Below are positions 3,839 through 21,507 of a DNA stretch of 44,337 nucleotides, piece by piece (position 1 is the stretch's first letter; the number at the start of each line of letters is the position of its first letter). The DNA lies in contig JAADII010000120.1 of the NCBI GenBank assembly GCA_013151415.1, forward strand, positions 1-44,337, given 5' to 3'. The notes beneath the pieces were generated by a model, which ran no database searches, was not told the origin of the DNA, and was given only the letters and a program-made list of their open reading frames with translations. The position numbers were made by a program, and so were the translations under genes. Source of the stretch: Chloroflexota bacterium (lineage in GTDB: Bacteria; Chloroflexota; Anaerolineae; J102).

Positions 3839-4990
3839 TCATGCACACTCATGTAAGACCCTTTTTCCCACATCGGAAACCATTTCGGCCACGCGCGTCA
3901 CGTGATCTTCATTCATGATGGTTCCCGAAGGAAGACAAAGACCTTTCTCGAACAGCTCCTCAGCCACAGCCCCGCCCACGATCTCGCAATCGCGAAACAC
4001 CGGCTGCAAATGCATGGGCTTCCACAAGGGGCGAGATTCGATGTTCTCGGCCTCCAACGCCCGACGCACATCTTCGCGGGTGGCGCCAAACTCCTCCGGT
4101 TCGATGAGGATGACGGTCAGCCAGCGCGTGGCCCTGCCCCACGGCGCTTCGGGCATGAAAGTGACGCCGGGAAGGTCGGCCAGGTTTTGGCGGTACCATT
4201 CGAAAATGCGGCGCTTTTGCTCCACGCGCTCGGCCAACACGCGAATCTGGCCGCGGCCCACGGCCGCGAGCAAGTTGCTCATACGATAATTATAGCCGAT
4301 TTCGGAATGTTCGTAATGGGGTGCGGGATCGCGCGCCTGGGTGGAAAGCTTGCGCGCGTGAGCAATGAGATCAGCGTCATCTGACACCAACATCCCCCCG
4401 CCCGATGTGGTGATGATTTTGTTGCCGTTGAACGAAAAAATGCCCGCTGCGCCAAACGCGCCCGGTGAGCGACCTTTGTAAGTCGCGCCCAGGGCCTCGG
4501 CCGCATCCTCGATGAGAGGGACGTCATACTCGAGACAAATTTCTCCAATGCGGTCGATGTCGGCCGTCTGGCCGTAAAGATGCACCAGCACCACGGCCTT
4601 GGGCAATCGGCCTTCTCGCGCTTTGCGGGCGAGGGTTTCGGCCAGCAGGTCGGGATCCATGTTCCATGAAACCCGCTCGCTGTCGATGAAGACCGGCTTC
4701 GCGCCCAGATAAACCACCGGATTGGCGCTGGCCGCAAAAGTGAGGGTGGAGACGATAACCTCATCGCCGGGTTCTACGCCCAAGTGAATGAGCGCTAGAT
4801 GAATGGCGGCCGTGCCCGAACTGAGAGCGAGCGCGTGTTTCGCGGCCACCAGCTCCGCGAACTCCTGCTCGAATGCGTCCACCTGAGGGCCAAGCGGCGC
4901 GATCCAGTTGCTCTCGAATGCTTCTTGCAAAAATTGCCATTCGAGACCTGACATGTGGGGTGGGGAAAGGTAAAGACGAGGGCGCGTCAT
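3839..4990 (-). CDS. PLP-dependent sugar aminotransferase (PglE/EpsN-like)
   Basis: A 383-residue DegT/DnrJ/EryC1/StrS aminotransferase. By family and context it should convert a UDP-4-keto-6-deoxy-GlcNAc intermediate into the 4-amino sugar for the neighbouring acetyltransferase. Key features: substrate/PLP region SSGTAAIH (58-64), EDAAEALGA with Asp162 binding the pyridine nitrogen, and Lys191 in SFNGNKIITTSGGGM forming the internal aldimine. The opening (LYLSPPHMSG.E..F..EAF..NWIAPLGP) matches the PglE/EpsN subgroup. It is the last gene of the operon, 7 bp after the acetyltransferase gene. The 4,6-dehydratase PglF that would supply the substrate is not in the window. Confidence 0.9.
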   Translation of the reverse strand: MTRPRLYLSPPHMSGLEWQFLQEAFESNWIAPLGPQVDAFEQEFAELVAAKHALALSSGTAAIHLALIHLGVEPGDEVIVSTLTFAASANPVVYLGAKPVFIDSERVSWNMDPDLLAETLARKAREGRLPKAVVLVHLYGQTADIDRIGEICLEYDVPLIEDAAEALGATYKGRSPGAFGAAGIFSFNGNKIITTSGGGMLVSDDADLIAHARKLSTQARDPAPHYEHSEIGYNYRMSNLLAAVGRGQIRVLAERVEQKRRIFEWYRQNLADLPGVTFMPEAPWGRATRWLTVILIEPEEFGATREDVRRALEAENIESRPLWKPMHLQPVFRDCEIVGGAVAEELFEKGLCLPSGTIMNEDHVTRVAEMVSDVGKRVLHECA

Positions 4991-4997
4991 GTGCGAA

Positions 4998-5639
4998 TCA
5001 TCCCTTTTTTAGCAATCGGGCCGGAACCCCGACCGCGGTGACATTGGGTGGAATATCATGGAGGACAACCGAGCCCGCCCCGACAACGCTCCATCCGCCC
5101 ACGCGTCTTCGAGGCGTCACTGTTGCGCCAATGCCCACGAACGCGCCCTCTTCCACTTCGACCTCACCGCCGAGATGGGCGCCCGGGGCAATGTGAACAT
5201 GGGCGCGGATGCGATTATGATGATCAATGGTGCAACCGGTGTTCAAAATCACATTCTCGCCGATGACCGAGCCAGGATTGACGACGACGCCGGCGCAGAT
5301 CATCGCGCCGCGGCCAATTTGCACATCCGGAGCAATCACTGTGCGTGGATGGCGGGCCACGACGAAACGTTCGCCTTGCTCGCTCAATCTCGCAAACAAA
5401 CGCCTTCGCGTTTGATTGTCGCCCACCGCGACAACAATCGCATCATGCGAGATAGTGGATAGCAAAGAAAGGCTTCCAAAAACAGGTAGCTGCAAAAAAC
5501 GCTTTTCCCATAGAGCGTCGTTGTCATCCAGATAGCCGATCGGACGCAACGATGCGTCATCTTCATATATTCGCCATAAGATATCGGCCACCACCTGGGC
5601 ATGGCCGCCAGCGCCGATGATCAAGACATGCTTGCTCAT
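4998..5639 (-). CDS. PglD/NeuD-family sugar O/N-acetyltransferase
   Basis: A 213-residue acetyltransferase of the PglD/NeuD family, which uses acetyl-CoA to acetylate an amino sugar. An N-terminal nucleotide-sugar-binding Rossmann segment (HVLIIGAGGHAQVVADIL, residues 3-20) precedes a left-handed beta-helix of hexapeptide repeats (from about residue 100: IGRGAMICAGVVVNPGS, IGENVILNTGCTIDHHN). The conserved DHHN carries the catalytic-base His. Length is typical. Its ATG overlaps the stop of the sugar transferase gene (ATGA), and the aminotransferase follows 7 bp later. This PglC-PglD-PglE order supports N,N'-diacetylbacillosamine-type priming. Confidence 0.9.
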   Translation of the reverse strand: MSKHVLIIGAGGHAQVVADILWRIYEDDASLRPIGYLDDNDALWEKRFLQLPVFGSLSLLSTISHDAIVVAVGDNQTRRRLFARLSEQGERFVVARHPRTVIAPDVQIGRGAMICAGVVVNPGSVIGENVILNTGCTIDHHNRIRAHVHIAPGAHLGGEVEVEEGAFVGIGATVTPRRRVGGWSVVGAGSVVLHDIPPNVTAVGVPARLLKKG

Positions 5640-7504: not shown

Positions 7505-9631
7505 TCATCCCACGATGATCGGCGCGCCAGGCTCAGGGTTAAGAGATAAGCGTATGGCAAGGGTAAGGGTTTGCAGGGTGATCTCCTGCTCGGAAAGCAT
7601 GATGCGGCCAGGCTCGGGGCCAAAATGGGTGATGAAAAAAAGAGCGGCGGCATCAACCGCAAACGCCAACGAGAGCGCCGGCTTCAGGCAAAAATAAGAG
7701 GGGGCCTGCCATCCTCGCGGAGAGGTTTCATCGGCCCGAATCAGAGAGATGCGGCCGGGCGCAGAAGCGGCGAGAGCAGTGAAATACATGCCTGCCGGAG
7801 TGTCTAAACTCAAACGTTGCGCCTGCTCATCCCATTGATAAGGAAAATCGTCAAAAAGCCAATGAAGCCGATAACGATGCGCTCCGGCGCTGTGCAGACG
7901 ATCCACAACCAACCAATGCTCGGCGGGCAGCCGCACCAAAGCCCGGCCATGCCACGCAGGCGTTGGCAACCGCTGATAACCATCGTGCTCGCCTTCCCAA
8001 ACCGTTATTTCGTGAGCGGTGATGTCGCGACGAAGCGAGACGCGAGTCGTCAACCAGGGAAGCCAAAGAAAAACGCCTGGCCGCTCCATTTGGTCGCGAT
8101 CATCCACCGTGACGGTGTTGTGAAAGCGGGCGCCAGCCAACGGGTTACCCTCCCAAGGAGGATCCGCGTTGTAACTATAGGTTCCGGGATCGATGGCGAT
8201 GTTTTGTCCGCGCCACCAGATATCCACATGAAGCGCGTCGGCCTGCCCAGGTCGATGACGGAATGTGGGGCCGCGTGTAAATGCAAGACCGCTTGAAGTG
8301 CGCAACACACAACACCCCCCTATTTCGGCCTGAAAATCACCCTGCTCTCGCGTTTGCCGGGAAGCGCGTAGCGCGGCGGGCCCCCACAGCCAGAGCAGAT
8401 CTTCATCCCAGGGGCCGCGCTCGAAACAACGTTTGCCCTCGATAAGAAAATAACCGGCCTGAATCGCGGGGCGAAAATCGCGGTGATGACAATGGTTGAG
8501 GGGCAAAATAAGCGCGCCATCGTCTTGACCATAATGAGGCAACCGTCCGCTTTCCCGGTCCATTTGACCATGGAGAAAATGGGTCGATTCTTCGATACGG
8601 CGCTGAACAATGTTGGGTAACGGATCGCGATTCAGTTCACCTATCCGCCACGCCCAGATCAAATCGTGTAAAGCCAGACGATGATAATTGAACGAGTGTT
8701 GAACAAACGCGCCATCGTCGTAGAACAGATCATAGGCCGTGTGATGCAACGCGTCGCGACCCCGCTCGCGCCAACGACTGGCGCACTGGAATTCAGGAAA
8801 CAACAATCCAATGGTCCACAAGCCAACGCCCTCGCTGATGCTATGGTTGTTGCGTTGGCTCAGCGCATAATCCAGATTGGCTTCAATGCGTTCGGCTGAA
8901 AGGGCTATCATATGGGCCAATTTCACCACGCGTTCAGGCGTGGTTGCAGGGCTGGTTAGAAAAGCGTAAAACCCAAAACACCAGGCCATGACGCGAAAGG
9001 TGATCTCTTGCCCACATTTCCAGTTTGGCCCAAGTTGCGGAGGATTGGCGCTTCTCCAATCCTCCACGGCCATCCAAAAGAGTTCGGCCAGCTGCTCATC
9101 GCCTGTGCGAGCGTAAAGACGCACCAGATCAAACACAAAGCCAAACCGATTGAGCTCCCATATGAGCTTGATATCGCCGCGACCAAACTCATCGAGGCGG
9201 CTCCAGTGCTGATTGGCTGGCCACTCGCGATTCGTGAGCGGATTTCGCAGCCAGTTGGGCGGGAAACCGGTTTTGGCGGTCAAGCAAGTGAAAAGCCGAA
9301 GTTCGCCTCTGCTCAAGCGTTGGACGCGCCGCGCCAGAGAGGAGGAGGTCGTCGCGTCGATGTCGCGAAGATGGGACTGAAATTGCTCGAAATCGGTGGG
9401 AGAAAAGAAAAAGGTGGGGCCAAGAGTGCGACGATAGGCCAGGTAGGCGTTTGGCTCAGCCAAAGACGCGTCGTTTAGAAATTCGGCCAAAGGCCTCTCA
9501 TCCCATGAATGGGCCGGAAGCTGGCGTTGGATGAGCCCCAAACGAGATCGCGCGGCGTAGGCCGCCCGAAACGCCAGCCAACGCGGCCCAAAATAACGAT
9601 AGAGAAGCCGGACAAACTCGAAACGATTCAT
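7505..9631 (-). CDS. Heparinase II/III family protein
   Basis: A 708-residue protein with the alpha-toroid plus beta-sandwich layout of heparinase II/III-type polysaccharide lyases, which cleave uronic-acid-containing chains. Likely catalytic stretches are RNNHSISEG (about 260-268), NYHRLALHDL (about 315-324) and, in the C-terminal domain, HVDIWWRGQNIAIDPGTYSYN and ARFHNTVTVDD. No signal peptide or membrane anchor is visible, so it may act in the cytoplasm or leave by another route. Its ATG at 9631 overlaps the wecB stop (ATGA), so it is translationally coupled inside the biosynthetic operon. Such homologues often lie near the two-domain oxidoreductase found here; their exact role in assembly is not settled. 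Confidence 0.87.
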   Translation of the reverse strand: MNRFEFVRLLYRYFGPRWLAFRAAYAARSRLGLIQRQLPAHSWDERPLAEFLNDASLAEPNAYLAYRRTLGPTFFFSPTDFEQFQSHLRDIDATTSSSLARRVQRLSRGELRLFTCLTAKTGFPPNWLRNPLTNREWPANQHWSRLDEFGRGDIKLIWELNRFGFVFDLVRLYARTGDEQLAELFWMAVEDWRSANPPQLGPNWKCGQEITFRVMAWCFGFYAFLTSPATTPERVVKLAHMIALSAERIEANLDYALSQRNNHSISEGVGLWTIGLLFPEFQCASRWRERGRDALHHTAYDLFYDDGAFVQHSFNYHRLALHDLIWAWRIGELNRDPLPNIVQRRIEESTHFLHGQMDRESGRLPHYGQDDGALILPLNHCHHRDFRPAIQAGYFLIEGKRCFERGPWDEDLLWLWGPAALRASRQTREQGDFQAEIGGCCVLRTSSGLAFTRGPTFRHRPGQADALHVDIWWRGQNIAIDPGTYSYNADPPWEGNPLAGARFHNTVTVDDRDQMERPGVFLWLPWLTTRVSLRRDITAHEITVWEGEHDGYQRLPTPAWHGRALVRLPAEHWLVVDRLHSAGAHRYRLHWLFDDFPYQWDEQAQRLSLDTPAGMYFTALAASAPGRISLIRADETSPRGWQAPSYFCLKPALSLAFAVDAAALFFITHFGPEPGRIMLSEQEITLQTLTLAIRLSLNPEPGAPIIVG

Positions 9632-10713
9632 GAATTCGCCACTATGTCCGCGACGCGTTCGCCCGCGCGACCATCCCAAAGCGGCGGCGCCTGGCCTTGC
9701 TTGCTTTGTCCGGAGAGGATTTTATCCACTTCCTCGCGCAAGCGGTGCATATTTTGCCCAACCAAGATGTTCGTTCCCACCTCGACCGTGACCGGGCGTT
9801 CGGTATTGGCGCGCACGGTGAGACAAGGCACGCCCAGATAGGTGGTCTCCTCTTGCACGCCGCCCGAATCGGTGACGACGAAACGCGCGGCGTCTTGCAA
9901 GGCCAAAAAGTCAAGATAACCCAAAGGTTCGAGAAGATGCAAACGCGAGTTTCGTATCTCATACTGCGCGTCTTGAAGCCGGACGCGGGTTCGGGGATGA
10001 ATGGGGAAAAGAAGGGGAATTTCAACCGCGATTTCTTGCAATGTATCCATCAGCGAATGAAGCATGACCGGATCATCCACATTCGAGGGACGATGGAGGG
10101 TGATAAGACCATAGCCCCGCGGTTCGACGCCCAAATCGCGCAGTATTGTCGCTTGCCTCGCACGCGGCAGCAATCTCACCAATGTATCGATCATCACATT
10201 GCCCACCAGGTGGATTTTTTCACTTGGCACGCCCTCTTGCAAGAGGTTGACATTGCCATCGACCGAGGGCGTAAACAACATGTCGGCTATCTGATCGGTG
10301 AGGAGACGATTGATCTCTTCAGGCATGGTGCGGTCGCGCGAACGCAAGCCGGCCTCGACATGACCGATAGGAATCAACAACTTGGCGCACACCAAAGCCG
10401 CGGCCACGGTGGAATTCACGTCACCATAAACAAGCGCGAGATCCGGTTTCTCAGTCAACGCCACCTCTTCGAAACGCATCATTATCTGAGCCGTCTGCCA
10501 GGCGTGAGAGCCTGAGCCGACATCGAGATTGATATCGGGTTCGGGAATATCCAACTGCCGAAAAAAGATTTCCGACATGTTGGCATCGTAATGTTGCCCC
10601 GTATGCACCAAAACCTGAGAGATATTGGGCTTTTGGGCCAGCGCCTGCATCACAGGCGCGACTTTCATGAAGTTGGGTCGTGCGCCGACCACATGGATGA
10701 TCTTAAAAGGCAT
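9628..10713 (-). CDS. wecB: UDP-N-acetylglucosamine 2-epimerase (non-hydrolysing)
   Basis: A 361-residue enzyme interconverting UDP-GlcNAc and UDP-ManNAc, a precursor for ManNAc or ManNAcA residues. Hallmarks: GARPNFMKVAPVM (10-22), HTGQHYD (37-43), VYGDVNST with Asp98, GHVEAGLRS with Glu120, TMPEEINR with the Glu132/133 region, VVTDSGGVQEE and RANTERPVTVEVGTN near the C-terminus. The last motif is the WecB pattern and differs from the second epimerase at 14984. ATG 10713 is chosen because it starts the family consensus and gives only an 11-bp overlap with the methyltransferase gene. No UDP-ManNAc dehydrogenase (WecC) is seen in the window. Confidence 0.92.
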   Translation of the reverse strand: MPFKIIHVVGARPNFMKVAPVMQALAQKPNISQVLVHTGQHYDANMSEIFFRQLDIPEPDINLDVGSGSHAWQTAQIMMRFEEVALTEKPDLALVYGDVNSTVAAALVCAKLLIPIGHVEAGLRSRDRTMPEEINRLLTDQIADMLFTPSVDGNVNLLQEGVPSEKIHLVGNVMIDTLVRLLPRARQATILRDLGVEPRGYGLITLHRPSNVDDPVMLHSLMDTLQEIAVEIPLLFPIHPRTRVRLQDAQYEIRNSRLHLLEPLGYLDFLALQDAARFVVTDSGGVQEETTYLGVPCLTVRANTERPVTVEVGTNILVGQNMHRLREEVDKILSGQSKQGQAPPLWDGRAGERVADIVANS

Positions 10714-13821: not shown

Positions 13822-14967
13822 TTAGTCGTTCCTGATCTCCTTTTCGAGATCGCGATACATGGCAATCAGTTTGGCGGCCTCGTTTTCCCAATTGTAGCGG
13901 GTCAATACGGCCTCGCGGCCTTGCCGCCCCATGCGCTGGCGTTTTTCTGGATCGGAGGCCAAATCATCAAGCGCGCGGGCAATATCGTCGGGGTCCGATG
14001 GATCGACCAGCAAACCACAACCTGTTTCTTTGATAATGGAACGCAGCTCAATGGCGAAATCGGGTGCAAGCACGGCTAAAGCGGCCGACATATAATCAAA
14101 CATCTTATGCGGCATGGCATAGACATGATTCTCACGTCCGGGTTGGAACAAGATCAAACCGATGTCCGCAGCTTGCAAACATTGAAAAGCCTCTGTAAAC
14201 GGCATCCAATCATCAATGACAATGCGGTCGTTCAAACCCAACGCTCGAGAAGCGGCTTCAAACGCTTCTCGACTGCCATCGTTGAACTCGCCAATGATGT
14301 GCAAACGCAGCTTTTGCGATTTTACGCGAGCGAACGCTTCGAGCAAAACTGGCCAGCCCCGCACGCGGCTGATCAAACCCAAATGCACGGCCGTGACGCG
14401 GTTGTCTTCGACTGTCGCGGATGTTTCTATAGGGGATGGGTCTGGTCGAGGTGAAAAATTGCCCACAACGATGCTCTTCTCGGCGGCGCCGGGATAATCT
14501 CGCGCCATCGACGCTTGCGCCAGAACAAGACGATCGGTAAAGGGGAGCAAGAGTCGGAACAACAAACGCAATAGCCCTGCAATCAGGGGGCGCAAGGTCG
14601 GCGGCAGTCGTCCGGCTAAGAAGGTGGCCGGATAATATTCATGCACATCGAATATTATCTTTTTCCCGCGCAACACTTTGAGAAACACGCCCACCAGCCA
14701 GGAATCGACCTCATTGCAATGATAGAAATCCGCATCGACTCTGGCCGCCATCCGGTAAAGGCGCGGCAATTGCAGCAGACGATCGAGAAGCCGGGCGGGT
14801 CGAGGGTAGGGCGTCACCATAACGCCCTGCTCGACAAACGCCTCTTCCTCCGAAGGCGCAATGTGAACAACGCGGAAGCCAGCGTTGGCCAGAGAGACCG
14901 CCTCCTTGTCAAAAACGCGCTTATCGCGCGGCGGATGCATCGCGGAAAGAAAACAGATCGTGCTCAT
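13822..14967 (-). CDS. GT4 family glycosyltransferase
   Basis: A 381-residue GT-B enzyme adding one sugar to the lipid-linked repeat unit in the cytoplasm. The N-terminal half has TICFLSAMHPPRDKRVFDKEA and DFYHCNEVDSW; the donor half has VHLGLISRVRGWPVLLEAF, IGEFNDGS, MPHKMFDYMSAALAVLAPDF and KETGCGLLVDPSDPDDIARAL. Donor and acceptor cannot be predicted. ATG 14967 starts at the conserved first strand; an upstream in-frame codon at 15036 would overlap the preceding epimerase by more than 50 bp and is less likely. It ends 9 bp before the two-domain oxidoreductase gene. Confidence 0.88.
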   Translation of the reverse strand: MSTICFLSAMHPPRDKRVFDKEAVSLANAGFRVVHIAPSEEEAFVEQGVMVTPYPRPARLLDRLLQLPRLYRMAARVDADFYHCNEVDSWLVGVFLKVLRGKKIIFDVHEYYPATFLAGRLPPTLRPLIAGLLRLLFRLLLPFTDRLVLAQASMARDYPGAAEKSIVVGNFSPRPDPSPIETSATVEDNRVTAVHLGLISRVRGWPVLLEAFARVKSQKLRLHIIGEFNDGSREAFEAASRALGLNDRIVIDDWMPFTEAFQCLQAADIGLILFQPGRENHVYAMPHKMFDYMSAALAVLAPDFAIELRSIIKETGCGLLVDPSDPDDIARALDDLASDPEKRQRMGRQGREAVLTRYNWENEAAKLIAMYRDLEKEIRND

Positions 14968-14983: not shown

Positions 14984-16069
14984 TCATGGTTGCGAAGCTT
15001 CCAGGATATCGACGATCTTTTCTGCGGCTCGACCATCGCCGAATATCAAGGGCGGCGCACCAGTGACGCGCAGCGAGTTCGCGGCATGAAGTATCTTGTC
15101 GCGATCGGCCCCCACCACCACATTCCATCCCGCCTCAACCGTCTCCACCCATTCGGTTTCTGGTCTGAGCGTGATGCAAGGCACGCTCAGGAAGAACGCC
15201 TCCTTCTGCACTCCGCCCGAATCGGTGAGAATGGCTTTGGCGTTTTCTTCCAGGATCAGCATGTCGAAATAACTCACCGGCTCGATGAAATGCACACCCC
15301 TGGCTTGCAAGGCGTGGATGTCCATATCGAACTCGAGCATTTTTGAGCGGGTGCGCGGATGCACCGGAAAAACGACTTTCTCCTCTATTTCGGCCAACGC
15401 GGTTAAGATGGCGTGCAGATTTTCGCGCACATCGGTGTTATAAGGACGATGGACCGTAGCGAGCATGTAGGATTTGGGCGACAAGGCAAGGTCATCCAAA
15501 ATGGTCGAACGCCCGCGCGCGCGTTGCAGAAAGAACAACAATGCATCGTACATGGTGTCGCCCACCCAATGCACGCCGGAGCGAATCCCTTCGGTGCGCA
15601 GGTTTTCGACAGCCGTTTGGGTGGGGCAAAAGAGAAGATCGGCGCAGTGGTCGGTTAACACGCGATTATGCTCTTCGGGCATATCGCGATTGAAAGAACG
15701 CAATCCGGCCTCGACATGAGCAATAGGAAAACGCAGCTTCACAGCCGCGAGCGCGGCCGCGAGGGTCGAATTGGTGTCGCCATACACCAGCACCCAATCG
15801 GGCGATTCGCGAAGCATTACTTGCTCCAGCTGCATGAGCATTTGCGCCGTTTGCCAACCATGCGCGCCCGAACCAATGCCCAAATTGAGGTGAGGACGAG
15901 GAATTTGCAACTCGTCGAAGAAGACTTGCGACATGTTGGCGTCATAGTGTTGTCCGGTGTGGATCAGAACATCTTCATGACCTCGGGCGCGTAGCGCTTT
16001 ACATACTGGCGCGGCTTTGATGAATTGGGGGCGAGCGCCAACCACCGTCAGGACTTTCATTGTGTTCAT
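14984..16069 (-). CDS. WbpI-like non-hydrolysing UDP-sugar 2-epimerase
   Basis: A 361-residue second epimerase. The core matches WecB (HTGQHYDANMSQVFF, VYGDTNST, HVEAGLRSFNRDMPEEHNR, LTDSGGVQKEAFFL). The opening VGARPQFIKAAPV and the C-terminal RPETEWVETVEAGWN are typical of WbpI/WlbD-type enzymes, which epimerise UDP-GlcNAc3NAcA to UDP-ManNAc3NAcA. The fused WbpB-WbpD-like gene at 18555 fits this pathway, but specificity is inferred. ATG 16069 overlaps the stop of a 23-codon ORF as ATGA. The alternative ATG 16060 starts at the family consensus three codons later. Confidence 0.88.
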   Translation of the reverse strand: MNTMKVLTVVGARPQFIKAAPVCKALRARGHEDVLIHTGQHYDANMSQVFFDELQIPRPHLNLGIGSGAHGWQTAQMLMQLEQVMLRESPDWVLVYGDTNSTLAAALAAVKLRFPIAHVEAGLRSFNRDMPEEHNRVLTDHCADLLFCPTQTAVENLRTEGIRSGVHWVGDTMYDALLFFLQRARGRSTILDDLALSPKSYMLATVHRPYNTDVRENLHAILTALAEIEEKVVFPVHPRTRSKMLEFDMDIHALQARGVHFIEPVSYFDMLILEENAKAILTDSGGVQKEAFFLSVPCITLRPETEWVETVEAGWNVVVGADRDKILHAANSLRVTGAPPLIFGDGRAAEKIVDILEASQP

Positions 16070-16137
16070 TGGCTCGGTTCGAGTGCAGGTTGCGCAAACC
16101 ATTGCAGTGGTTCGATGTCGGGATAATTTTCTTTCAT
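16066..16137 (-). CDS. Predicted 23-residue small ORF between coupled genes
   Basis: The largest gap in the downstream half of the operon is exactly filled by a 24-codon frame. Its ATG (16137) overlaps the TGA of the upstream glycosyltransferase as ATGA, and its TGA (16066-16068) overlaps the ATG of the epimerase as ATGA. The peptide starts MKENYPDIEPLQWF and is acidic, with no membrane segment. It may be a real small protein, or only a frame that carries ribosomes between two genes. I recognise no family. It could also be the tail of a lost gene. Confidence 0.45.
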   Translation of the reverse strand: MKENYPDIEPLQWFAQPALEPSQ

Positions 16138-17318
16138 GCTTCTACGAGCGGCTGTGCAACGGATTGAACGCCAACTCGGGCCAAAATTTGTTGCAAGCGC
16201 GGAGTCTGGGTTTCCCACACGAAGCGCTCGCTCACTTGTTGAGCGCGTTGGCGGTAAAACGATTCTCGCTCCAAAATCTGTCGCAACGCGCGCCCCACGC
16301 GTTCAACCGAAGACGCGTCCACCACGACTCCGCATTGATATTGCTCGACCAGGCTCTTCATGGGGGGGTTTTCTCCCACCACGACCGGAACGCCACGCGC
16401 CAAAGCCTGGTAGAGCCGATTGGGAGCGCAATATATCCAATTGAGATTGCGCATTTCATAGAAAACCACGCTGGCAAGGGCTGCATCGATGTAAATGGGC
16501 ACGTCCAATTGAGGCACAAAATCGACGAAACGAATGCGTTCATCGAACGATGCGCCGTATTTTTGTCGATACCAGGCCACTTTTGCCGGATCATATCCGC
16601 CCAATACGATTAGTTTCGCCGCGGGCAGAGCCATCATGGCCGCCACCAGCTCATCCAAATGACGCCAACGACCATGGCCGCCGCCCTGAGCCAAAAAATA
16701 GGGTTTGCCATCCAGCCAGTCTTGCAGCTCTGTGGGCAAAGCGCGTCGAGCGCTTTGAACGAAAAGTGCGTCGGGATAATTCTCTAAAGAGATGATGGGC
16801 GTGCGCAAACGCTTGCCCAACCGCTCTTCCAAAATTTGTCGACGCTCTTCATTGGCCGCGATGATCACCTGACAACGATTCATCAACCAGGCCAAAAGAC
16901 GACGAGTTCTCTCGCGAGCAAGGAGGCTGTCGGGCGGCAGCTCGTGTTGGTCCCACACCAACCCTTTGGCCATCCCCATGGCGCGCCATAAGGCCAGCAA
17001 GGGAATCAGTGCGGCGAAGGTCATGTCGTGAATCCAAATGATGTCTGGGCGCGAACGCAGTAGATGATGGAAAAGACGAAAATATAATTCACCGGTCTTG
17101 AGCCAGAGTTTCTGGCCGCTGGGGTATTTCGTGCGAGTTTTGAGCGCGACGGTCCGAGCCGGGATGCCGCCATAAACGGTGAGCGCGGCCGCTTCGTTTT
17201 TCTGCTCCAAAACCATGATTTCGACATCAACGCCGAGAGCAGCCAATGAGCGGCTCTCTTTCCGTAACCGATCATCATAGTCCAAATGATGCGTCTTGAT
17301 GGCCATCAAACATTTCAT
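16134..17318 (-). CDS. GT4-like glycosyltransferase
   Basis: A 394-residue GT-B enzyme of the repeat-unit assembly line, cytoplasmic. Recognisable parts: the N-terminal CLMAIKTHHLDYDDRLRKES, the interdomain WIHDMTFAAL and WDQHELPPDS, the donor-domain FLAQGGGHGRWRHLDELV and LIVLGGYDPAK, then PNRLYQALARGVPVVVGENPP with QCGVVVDASS. The match is weaker than for the other GT4 proteins here and the sugar is unknown. AAGGGG seven nt before ATG 17318 supports the start. Its stop is coupled (ATGA) to the 23-codon ORF. Confidence 0.8.
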   Translation of the reverse strand: MKCLMAIKTHHLDYDDRLRKESRSLAALGVDVEIMVLEQKNEAAALTVYGGIPARTVALKTRTKYPSGQKLWLKTGELYFRLFHHLLRSRPDIIWIHDMTFAALIPLLALWRAMGMAKGLVWDQHELPPDSLLARERTRRLLAWLMNRCQVIIAANEERRQILEERLGKRLRTPIISLENYPDALFVQSARRALPTELQDWLDGKPYFLAQGGGHGRWRHLDELVAAMMALPAAKLIVLGGYDPAKVAWYRQKYGASFDERIRFVDFVPQLDVPIYIDAALASVVFYEMRNLNWIYCAPNRLYQALARGVPVVVGENPPMKSLVEQYQCGVVVDASSVERVGRALRQILERESFYRQRAQQVSERFVWETQTPRLQQILARVGVQSVAQPLVEA

Positions 17319-17328
17319 ATAAAGCCCC

Positions 17329-18558
17329 TTAACTTTCTAGGTTCTCGCGACAACCCAGTGATATGGGAAACAAGAACAGATCATCGATATCTAAGAACGC
17401 CTGATGGTTGGTCTCCATGGCCCAGTAGGTCACTCGCTCCGAGCCGGGCGGGGGGATGGTCAAATAGGTCACCCTTCGCCATTGTTCGGCGGGATAACGA
17501 ACTGGATAATCCGTCTCATTTTCTTCAACCTTTGTCGCGTTTGGAAATTGCCAGTAAAGGCCGATCCTGGGGCGAGCATCCTGAGCCGAGCGATAGGTGA
17601 CGCCCACAAGATAGGCCTGTTGGTCCACAGGAGTGGGGATTGTGAAACTTTCACTGCCAATTCCCACAGAATGCCCTCCCTGGCTTTGGAGATGCAAGAA
17701 AACGCCGCGTTCGGGCAAGGCGGGATCGCTGACAAACTCGATGTCGGCCAATGTCTGATTGCGAAACAAGGCCTTGAAACCAGGGGGGAGCCCGGGCCCA
17801 AGTGAAACCACTTGATTGAAACCGCCATCGCGCAACAAATTTTGCACCCGCTCGATTTGATACAGCCTGCTCTTCCAAGCGATGGTGCGCTGATTTATGG
17901 TCAAAGGCGTCTTCATCTGTAAAGCATTGTCGGGTTCGATTCGCTCCCAAACAAGGATTATGTTCACCGGCGCGTCGAATTGAATATCCTGATTATCGAC
18001 ATAAACGCCGTTCAAACGCCAGCCCGGACATATTTCATCCTGAACCAGGGCGCCTGGCGGCGTCATGGCATCCGCCTCTGTCAAGGCTTGCTCGGCCAGG
18101 ACGCGATCACCCATAGCATACTGAACGCGGGCCAAACCCAGCAGCGCCTCCAAGCGGATTTGCTCCGTTCCTTGCTCGTAAGCCTGCCGATAAAATGCAC
18201 CCGCATCGTCGAAGCGCTGGCCGGCTTCGGCGTTTTCGGCCCTGACCAACGCCTCGCGCCCCGCGCGATATTGCTGAAGCTCTAAGGTGGCCGCCTGAGC
18301 GAACAAGCTCTCCAATCGCTCACGATATTGCGCATATCGCGCCCGGTCTTCATGGGAAAGGTAAGCGTCGTATCTCTTTGTTTGCTCAATGCTCATGTCT
18401 GCGCGGGCTTCGCCCGGAGCCAAGAAGTAATTGGCCAACTGCACAAATGTGGCGTTGCGAGCCGCTATTCGCATCAGGACGAGGCTCGACAAGCCAACAA
18501 GGAGAGCGATCTGGAGGAGAAGCAAGCCGCGTTTTATGGTTTTCGACGCCGCATTCAT
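17329..18558 (-). CDS. Membrane-anchored TPR-like protein with C-terminal beta domain
   Basis: A 409-residue protein of unknown function. One N-terminal helix (about residues 11-30) anchors it, with the rest probably outside. Residues ~60-165 are helical and TPR-like ([41 protein letters not shown]). A segment beginning [18 protein letters not shown] follows, then a predicted beta-sandwich ending [14 protein letters not shown]. The gene at 30009 shares this order and the closing D-D-x-F-x-x-P-I pattern, so the two look paralogous. It sits directly after the fused dehydrogenase gene (ATGA overlap; GAGG before ATG 18558) and before a GT4, which ties it to polysaccharide export or binding. Confidence 0.7.
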
Positions 18559-20219
18559 GCGCATTCCTCACGCGCCGAGACGTGGGCCTCGGCTCGAACG
18601 GGTTCCAATTTATCCGGAGCCACAAGTCGATACTGAGCGCCGCAACGCCCACAAGCGGCCGCCTTGTTGATCAGGTTCAGTTTCTCACCGCACTGGCACA
18701 TCCAACCCACCACCCGCGCCGGATTGCCGACCACCAGGGCGTAATCGGGCACATCGCGCGTGACCACAGCGCCCGCGCCCACGAAAGCATACGCGCCGAT
18801 CTCATTGCCACAAACAATGGTGGCATTGGCCCCGATGCTGGCGCCCCTGCGCACCAAGGTGGACTTGAACTCCTCTTTTCGCGAAACGTGGCTCCGTGGG
18901 TTGACAACATTGGTGAAAACGCACGATGGCCCGCAAAAGACATCATCTTCTAAAACAACGCCGCTATAGACCGAAACATTGTTCTGAATCCTAACGCCAT
19001 CGCCGATAACGACATGAGGGCCAATGTGCACATTTTGCCCCAAAACACAATGCTTGCCGATGCGAGCATTGGCCATGACATGACTAAAATGCCATATCTT
19101 CGAGCCTTCGCCGATTTCGCATGGTTGATCAATGACCGCGGTGGGATGAACGTAATACTCTGGTCGCGAACGGGCCAAGATGACATCGCGCCCCGTTTCC
19201 AGGGATTGCTGACACGCGTTGAGCACCCGCAGCACGCGCCGACCCTCAACGCCATCGGTAAGGGGGCGGGAACGATTTTCGATGCAATTTAGAAAATGCT
19301 CGCATTCCACACGCAGCGGTTCTGTGGGTTCAAGCTCCACGGGAATGGCTTCGGCCTTGTGGGGCACAGGCATATGATTTCGCCATTCGATCTGATGAGG
19401 ATAGAGCAAGAGCTTTTCCTCCCACGGCGCGGTGTCGTTGAACACGGCCATTTGACGATCGCCCACAACCACCAAACGCTGCTCTTTGTAGGGATGAAGC
19501 CAACTAACGAAAATATGCGCTCGCAGACCGCTATCAAATTCCAATACGCTCACCGTAACGTCTGCAATATGTGCATGCAAATAATTGCCCCCGCGCGAGG
19601 TGACCGATTCGGGCAAGGTGTCGGCCAGCGCCAAAATGGCCGAAATATCATGCGGCGCGAAACTCCACAGAATGTTTTCTTCGCGACGAATTTTGCCCAA
19701 ATTGAGACGGTGAGAATAGATGTAAAGGATGCGCCCCAACACGCCATCCCGCACCAGTTCCTGCAACTTGACAAAGGCGGGATGATAACGCAACAAGTGG
19801 CCCACCATGAGCACGCGGTCATGCGTTTGCGCCAAAGCAATAAGCTCATCCGCTTGCTCCTCCATCAAACAAAGCGGCTTCTCCACAAAGACGTCTTTGC
19901 CAGCCAGGAGCGCTTCTTTAGCCAGCACATAATGCGTTTCGGCCGGCGTCGCGATGGCAACGGCTTTGATATCAGCATCATGCAATACAGCCGCGTACGC
20001 CAGATGTCCTGAAGCGCCCGGATATTGCTGCGTTAGGTGCGCCAATGTGGCGGGATCACTATCGCAAATGGCGGCCAACGCGCCCAATTGATAAAAATTC
20101 CGCACCAGGTTTTTACCCCAATATCCAGCGCCCACCACGGCCACGCGGCTGTGTTGGGGCGCCGCCGCAGGCTTCGGCTCAAATTCATCAGCAAAGGGCT
20201 GTTTCAATGCAACCTCCAT
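18555..20219 (-). CDS. Fused Gfo/Idh/MocA dehydrogenase and hexapeptide N-acetyltransferase (WbpB-WbpD-like)
   Basis: A 554-residue fusion. Residues ~24-350 form an NAD-dependent Gfo/Idh/MocA dehydrogenase ([20 protein letters not shown] motif with Lys114 in VFVEKPLCL). Residues ~356-505 form a left-handed beta-helix acetyltransferase ([53 protein letters not shown]). A C-terminal zinc-ribbon-like stretch (CQCG...CGRCG) follows. The two activities correspond to WbpB/WlbA (3-oxidation of UDP-GlcNAcA) and WbpD/WlbB (3-N-acetylation) in the UDP-ManNAc3NAcA pathway. The intervening aminotransferase WbpE is not adjacent. ATG 20219 lacks a Shine-Dalgarno; GGAGG five nt before an in-frame TTG at 20207 makes that a credible alternative start. 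Confidence 0.87.
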
Positions 20220-20247
20220 AAAACAATGCGATGGGGCAAGAGCATTT

Positions 20248-21507
20248 TTACTCTGCTTCAAGATACAAGAGGGTGGCCATGCCAAAGAGCAACCATGTCC
20301 ATATGGAAGATTTTGTTCCCCAAGCCACGGAATCGATCAGGCCATGCAAGGCGATGATCAGAAGGCCGATGACGACGGAAAAGGCGAGAGACGCCCAGGC
20401 CAACCGCTGATGCTGAGCAAAGCGCTTGTGAGCCTGCAAGGCCATCCACACGCACAAACCCCATAACGCGGCATAGGCAACCAGACCGGGTAGACCGATA
20501 TCAAGACCGATTTGCAGAAATAGATTGTGTGCATGAGGGATCTCAACACCGGGCGCCAACAAGGCGAGGGAGCGATAGGGATAGAAAAGGGGTATGACCT
20601 CATTCCAGGCCCCAAGCCCGATTCCACTCAGTGGGAAATCGCGTAACGCCTGCAATGCGCTCGCCCAAATCTCTAGGCGCCCCGCCATGCCGCCCAGAGG
20701 ATCATCCTGAAAGATCAAGGCGTCCAGACGAAATGGGCCGTTGCCTGTGGCCAGCGCCCAAATGCCAGCAAAGACGATGGGAACCGCGGCCCAACCGCGC
20801 GGCCATCGCAAAAGGACGGCCAGGCCCAGAGCCAGGGGCGCAGCCACCCAAACGCCGCGCGTGCGAAAAATGACGAGAATAAAAATAGAGGCGAAAAACG
20901 TCGCCAACGCCAATGCTCGCATCCAACGCCGCGAGCGGCGGGTCTCGCCCACAGGTCGCCAGGCCAAACTGATGCTCACCGGCAACCAGGCGGCCAACGC
21001 GCCCGAAATAACATTGGGATTCACAGTCTCGGGAATTCTTCGCCCGACCGCCAGCAACCAACCAGGGAAAAATGACAGATGCACTTTGCCGGCGTCCACC
21101 AACAGCGGACTGATGGCGGCGAGCAACGTCGTAACCAGCAAAATCATGCCCAATAGAAAGCTTATGCGCATTGGGCCCGCGCCCCAAATCAGCACAGCCC
21201 AGAAAAGGATCCCGCCAGCCACAATATAAGCCAGAGCCTGCCGCGCGGAATCGGGGGCTGGCGAAAACAACCAGGCCAGAAAGGTCGAAACAAACAAAAG
21301 GGCGAGCAGCCAATCGGCGGGCGAACGACGCCAAAAACGCCCTTCGCTTCGAAAAGAAAGATAGGCGAAGAGAACCAGCAACGGCGTCACCCAAAGCGCC
21401 TGTCCTGGAGAGAGCAGTAGAACCGCCAGTATCGCGGCCAAAGATGCGCCGGCGATAAACGCCGCGAACCAAAACCTGGCGCGTGGAGCGAAATATCGAC
21501 GAATCAT
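20248..21507 (-). CDS. O-antigen ligase/polymerase family membrane protein (Wzy_C)
   Basis: A ~419-residue polytopic membrane protein with about 10-12 helices. It carries the Wzy_C hallmarks in a large extracytoplasmic loop: [23 protein letters not shown] and, most telling, [19 protein letters not shown]. In this operon, between a Wzc-like co-polymerase and sugar-synthesis genes, the likely job is polymerising undecaprenyl-linked repeat units or ligating the finished chain. The start is uncertain: ATG 21507 lies 17 bp after the upstream stop but lacks a clear Shine-Dalgarno, while a codon at 21561 would add 18 residues and overlap the upstream gene. Confidence 0.85.

Follow-up and report, generated by a model that had tools for sequence, protein, structure and literature searches.

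A candidate bridging open reading frame at a glycosyltransferase-epimerase junction of a Chloroflexota polysaccharide-type operon

The stretch of DNA analysed here, 44,337 nucleotides (nt) from a Chloroflexota bacterium (the window; contig JAADII010000120.1 of assembly GCA_013151415.1), carries on its minus strand an operon in which a glycosyltransferase (GT) gene and a UDP-GlcNAc 2-epimerase gene are separated by a gap that is filled exactly by a 23-codon open reading frame (ORF). We tentatively, and at somewhat less than even confidence, read this mini-ORF as an orphan, specific to this lineage, that would bridge a junction at which the operon was probably rearranged: translation of the frame, coupling of the two genes by it and an origin of the gap by rearrangement are what we infer. 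A functional peptide is not supported by the sequence comparisons. The window makes up contig C167 of a genome of 4.5 Mb in 197 contigs (G000), which is the sole representative of its genus in the genome comparison set.

The mini-ORF and its junctions

The frame runs on the minus strand from 16137 to 16066 and, read directly, consists of 23 codons followed by TGA, encoding MKENYPDIEPLQWFAQPALEPSQ; its nucleotide sequence is ATG AAA GAA AAT TAT CCC GAC ATC GAA CCA CTG CAA TGG TTT GCG CAA CCT GCA CTC GAA CCG AGC CAA TGA. The upstream gene (17318-16134, 394 amino acids) encodes a GT4-type glycosyltransferase (Pfam Glyco_transf_4 and Glycos_transf_1). It ends in VEA (GTA GAA GCA), and its TGA at 16136-16134 overlaps the ATG of the mini-ORF (GC-ATGA), giving a 4-nt stop/start overlap at 16137-16134. 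The downstream gene (14984-16060, minus strand, start assigned by homology) encodes a non-hydrolysing UDP-GlcNAc 2-epimerase of the WecB/WbpI type (Pfam Epimerase_2, TIGR00236). The TGA of the mini-ORF in turn overlaps an in-frame epimerase ATG at 16069 (second ATGA, 16069-16066), where the epimerase frame reads ATG AAC ACA ATG AAA GTC CTG. The gap measures 64 nt up to this ATG, or 73 nt up to the ATG at 16060; no promoter or terminator was found within it, and from the gene end at 17329 to that at 7505 there is no other gap longer than 20 nt. These observations bear out the initial annotation of a short frame with ATGA at both ends, located in the only sizeable gap of the downstream half of the operon and encoding an acidic peptide (predicted isoelectric point 4.05, grand average of hydropathy -0.91, net charge about -3.5).

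That annotation also held both overlaps to be exact, which is so at the GT stop and unsure at the epimerase. The epimerase frame offers three in-frame ATGs, at 16102, 16069 and 16060. Its orthologues mostly open with MK(V/I/L)LTVVGARPQF, and L029, L030 and L031 (65-66% identity) open with MKLLTVVGARPQF or MKILTVVGARPQF; two others start differently, with MNRPLKIF in L026 and MTMNTL in L027. Judged by this homology, 16060 is likelier to be the start than 16069, and because the orthologues point to 16060, the second 4-nt overlap, which is with the ATG at 16069, is not certain. Given a start at 16060, the stop of the mini-ORF sits 5 nt before the epimerase start. At distances of this scale, reinitiation varies among gene pairs yet is not abolished (PMC10666635).

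The gap also contains an imperfect 16-nt direct repeat (TCGAACC....CAATG; 16067-16082 and 16100-16115 on the minus strand, 12/16 identical, spaced 33 nt) that bears two in-frame epimerase ATGs. As a repeat at least this good arises in 18 of 300 shuffles (6%), it was discounted.

Initiation signals and coupling

No Shine-Dalgarno (SD) motif was found at the starts 16137, 16069 or 16060; in this genome, an SD is present at 39% of spaced starts versus 11% of internal ATGs. In reporter assays, a spacing of +38 nt cuts reinitiation in E. coli by 80-90% or abolishes it, and about 20 nt of untranslated spacing almost abolishes coupling, while ATGA overlaps support reinitiation (PMC10666635): 13 of 14 overlapping pairs were strictly coupled (PMC6728339). 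Because SD motifs are absent and coupling depends on distance and overlap in this way, some translation of the mini-ORF from the GT stop is likely, and the mini-ORF may deliver ribosomes to the epimerase. A ribosome that ends GT synthesis at the ATGA would restart on the overlapping ATG at 16137, read 23 codons, terminate at the start of the epimerase or 5 nt short of it and be able to restart there. A gap of 64-73 nt without an SD would then be crossed by translation rather than uncoupling the epimerase, and the peptide sequence itself would probably be irrelevant. A small protein or a translational relay had been put forward initially. The relay is plausible from the overlaps at the ends, the lack of SD motifs and the published coupling, and it is the small protein that lacks support.

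Conservation among relatives

Searches of 20 family, 396 class and 400 phylum genomes returned no homologue of the peptide beyond chance, and a Pfam search with it returned no family match. Weak matches in the family (E 0.4-2.2) were scattered and their positions unrelated. The top family match (L109, MSHNYPTFDPLDW, inside a long open frame of G010) has an E value of 1.6, calculated for one genome, and we attribute it to chance. The exact-peptide pattern KENYPDIE had two matches in viral contigs, both of them unrelated ORFs; viral contigs were also searched for GT relatives, and none were found.

Only one GT orthologue, in G015 (59% identity), was detected among 61 relatives, the 396 class genomes and the GTDB contig collection: a scan of genome contigs with the GT alone gave no relative, and the repeat with alignment A1 gave only the known G015 record. 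In G015, a WecB2-type epimerase gene starts directly at the ATGA of the GT stop, with no mini-ORF between the two. This epimerase is the counterpart (73% identity) of the gene at 9628-10713, which in the window lies several genes further downstream. The junction after the GT thus differs in this nearest relative, and the intervening genes would therefore have been gained or moved. For the orthologues of the WbpI-type epimerase, the junction was read in five (L026, L027, L029, L030 and L031), which have unrelated sequence upstream, either other genes or non-coding DNA; L028 and L032, two further orthologues in the family, had no match to the start-locating motif and were left out of this reading. 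Since the GT orthologue, the epimerase orthologues and the peptide searches show no such arrangement, the GT-epimerase junction is probably recent in this lineage.

Among the compared genomes, which include none of the same genus, the frame is not conserved, and it may be of recent origin. The suggestion of an unannotated small protein is weakened by the lack of homologues at family, class and phylum level and by the missing frame at orthologous junctions. Different gap content at orthologous loci, which the annotation had named as evidence against its own proposal, is essentially what we observed, but at 59-72% protein identity, a distance at which a young gene would likewise be missing.

Frequency of ATGA-to-ATGA bridges

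We surveyed bridges between co-directed neighbours in 1.88 Mb of the same genome, with genes called by codon usage (home-made caller). For gaps of 20-200 nt (582 candidate ATG starts after a co-directed gene), 10 open ATGA-to-ATGA ORFs were detected, versus about 4.4 expected from independent frequencies or 5.9 with in-frame gaps shuffled. With gaps from 3 nt up, there were 14 such bridges versus 5.7 expected. A bridge is present after 14 of 69 genes ending in ATGA versus 16 of 199 ending in another NTGA, or about 2.5 times as often (Fisher p = 0.007, post hoc); in the +2 control frame the two groups do not differ (6/69 versus 18/199). The excess has p = 0.04 without the window and p = 0.17 with called starts only.

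The ATGA-to-ATGA layout is not rare, and any one case could be chance. The claim that two exact overlaps are improbable by chance was therefore overstated: 10-14 such ORFs were seen where about 4-6 are expected in 1.88 Mb. There is at the same time a hint that bridges are somewhat favoured in this genome.

Three of the 14 bridges fall in the window, and one of these occupies the junction that follows the epimerase (14987-14964, minus strand). This second, shorter mini-ORF, MIRTRFE (ATGATAAGGACTCGCTTCGAATGA), has 7 codons and ATGA at both ends, and lies between the epimerase stop and the start of a GT gene at 14967. It includes AAGGA, a possible SD of the following glycosyltransferase. The third bridge in the window has 4 codons (MIRT; about 4987-5001, minus strand) and lies between two other co-directed genes.

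Codon use and alternative explanations

The frame of the mini-ORF has a codon score of 5.27, close to the coding mean (5.8, standard deviation 3.2) and above the mean of open intergenic sequence (-1.8). The other two frames across it score 0.7 and -9.6, and about 5% of open intergenic 23-codon stretches surpass it. Its codon use is coding-like, as would be expected of a functional microprotein, although over 23 codons this is a weak indication. The other nine bridges with gaps longer than 20 nt all have non-coding scores (-10.7 to -0.1), and one bridge of ten in the top 5% is unremarkable, with a probability of about 40% by our own estimate.

Several results weigh against a bridging role. As many as 61% of spaced genes in this genome also have no SD, so that the epimerase may be initiated independently. 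This would be favoured by the mRNA at the junction, which shows less structure than shuffled sequence (z = +1.7). The excess of bridges is only about 2-fold and post hoc, comes from a home-made gene caller and is non-significant with called starts only.

Chance is an explanation that we regard as unlikely but to be taken seriously: the gap would be left-over intergenic sequence in which the frame is open and in phase by accident, hardly translated and without effect, and the epimerase would start independently. At the expected rate, many of the bridges observed must indeed be chance; the non-coding scores of the other nine and the unconserved peptide agree with this. What chance accounts for less readily is the coding-like codon use of this frame, within the top 5% of open intergenic stretches, and the modest genome-wide excess of bridges. 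Moreover, ATGA overlaps usually do permit reinitiation (PMC6728339).

The coding-like composition also fits a gene relic, either a GT tail displaced by a frameshift (a mutation or an assembly error) or a piece of some gene that disappeared in operon rearrangement. When the reading passes from the GT frame into that of the peptide near 16139, the score is 6.3, higher than at any other switch point tried, compared with 0.15 for the tail of the GT by itself; conservation is lacking over the last 15 codons of the GT, and in G015 another gene begins exactly at the ATGA of the GT. The GT of G015, however, ends without such a tail, 7 residues past the last conserved block, and no peptide-like protein was found in any genome searched, the weak family matches being scattered. 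We consider a relic improbable.

More doubtful still is a genuine young microprotein, 23 residues long and encoded by the operon. Codon use, the location in an operon and the overlaps at its two ends, which real small genes also show, would suit it, but the peptide has neither a homologue in the family, class and phylum genomes searched nor a family match, and the frame is missing at orthologous junctions. An insertion of a mobile repeat like the mycobacterial interspersed repetitive units (MIRUs) into an ATGA overlap, with the ATGA duplicated and coupling kept through the repeat's own ORF, can be practically dismissed: the mini-ORF does overlap its neighbours at -4 nt (on the downstream side, depending on which epimerase start is used), but its sequence is single-copy in the whole genome, is unrelated to the other bridging ORFs and has no flanking inverted or terminal repeats.

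Comparison with known systems

Like the ATGA gene pairs described by Huber et al. (2019, PMC6728339; 2023, PMC10666635), the mini-ORF has a -4 nt overlap at the GT stop, and perhaps one at the epimerase, and would need no SD of its own; the loss of coupling that those pairs show with untranslated spacing would be a further likeness to the present case. In those pairs two full-length genes overlap directly, whereas here a 23-codon ORF, known from sequence, lies between the genes. The mini-ORF also resembles short upstream ORFs whose only role is ribosome delivery to the gene that follows (reviewed in PMC12548453), in that it stops at the start, or 5 nt short of the start, of the gene that it would feed; unlike them, it is intercistronic and would itself be fed by the stop codon of the upstream gene. 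As far as the review's account of them goes (PMC12548453, citing Supply et al. 1997), MIRUs are the closest described layout, with an ORF in an operon gap and -4 nt coupling, but they are dispersed repeats.

The minigene of axe-txe (PMC8708949) is likewise located ahead of a gene within an operon, and its effect depends on its frame and on its spacing from the gene that follows. It differs in having two codons and its own SD, in lying 15 nt before txe and in its proposed action through mRNA stability. Intergenic small ORFs of Enterobacteriaceae (PMC11188072) are similarly short, abut or overlap their operon neighbours and are in many cases confined to one genus; those kept in that study show selection across many genomes, and the mini-ORF is found in one of the genomes compared.

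We regard the mini-ORF as an unexceptional case of a short, presumably coupled ORF, accompanied by a modest statistical lead on such bridges in this genome. A broader and distinctly speculative idea, to which we give little credence, is that unconserved ATGA-bounded relay mini-ORFs form a class kept in this genome and perhaps across Anaerolineae; they would be retained whatever peptide they encode and would restore termination-reinitiation across gene-replacement gaps. If bridges are selected for, they would offer a simple, sequence-independent route to keeping an operon translationally coupled after genes swap in or out, and some unconserved intercistronic ORFs would be explained without a microprotein function. 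The consequence of the single case is small: caution against annotating the 23-amino-acid ORF as a protein.

Neighbouring genes

The functions encoded by the minus-strand operon are of the polysaccharide type: glycosyltransferases, two UDP-GlcNAc 2-epimerases, a methyltransferase and a heparinase-like protein. The two epimerases (9628-10713 and 14984-16060, minus strand), both of the WecB family, are about 50% identical. The same operon encodes a fused Gfo/Idh dehydrogenase-acyltransferase (18555-20285, minus strand), in which a Gfo/Idh-type UDP-sugar 3-dehydrogenase-like domain is joined to a NeuD/LpxA-type acyltransferase domain.
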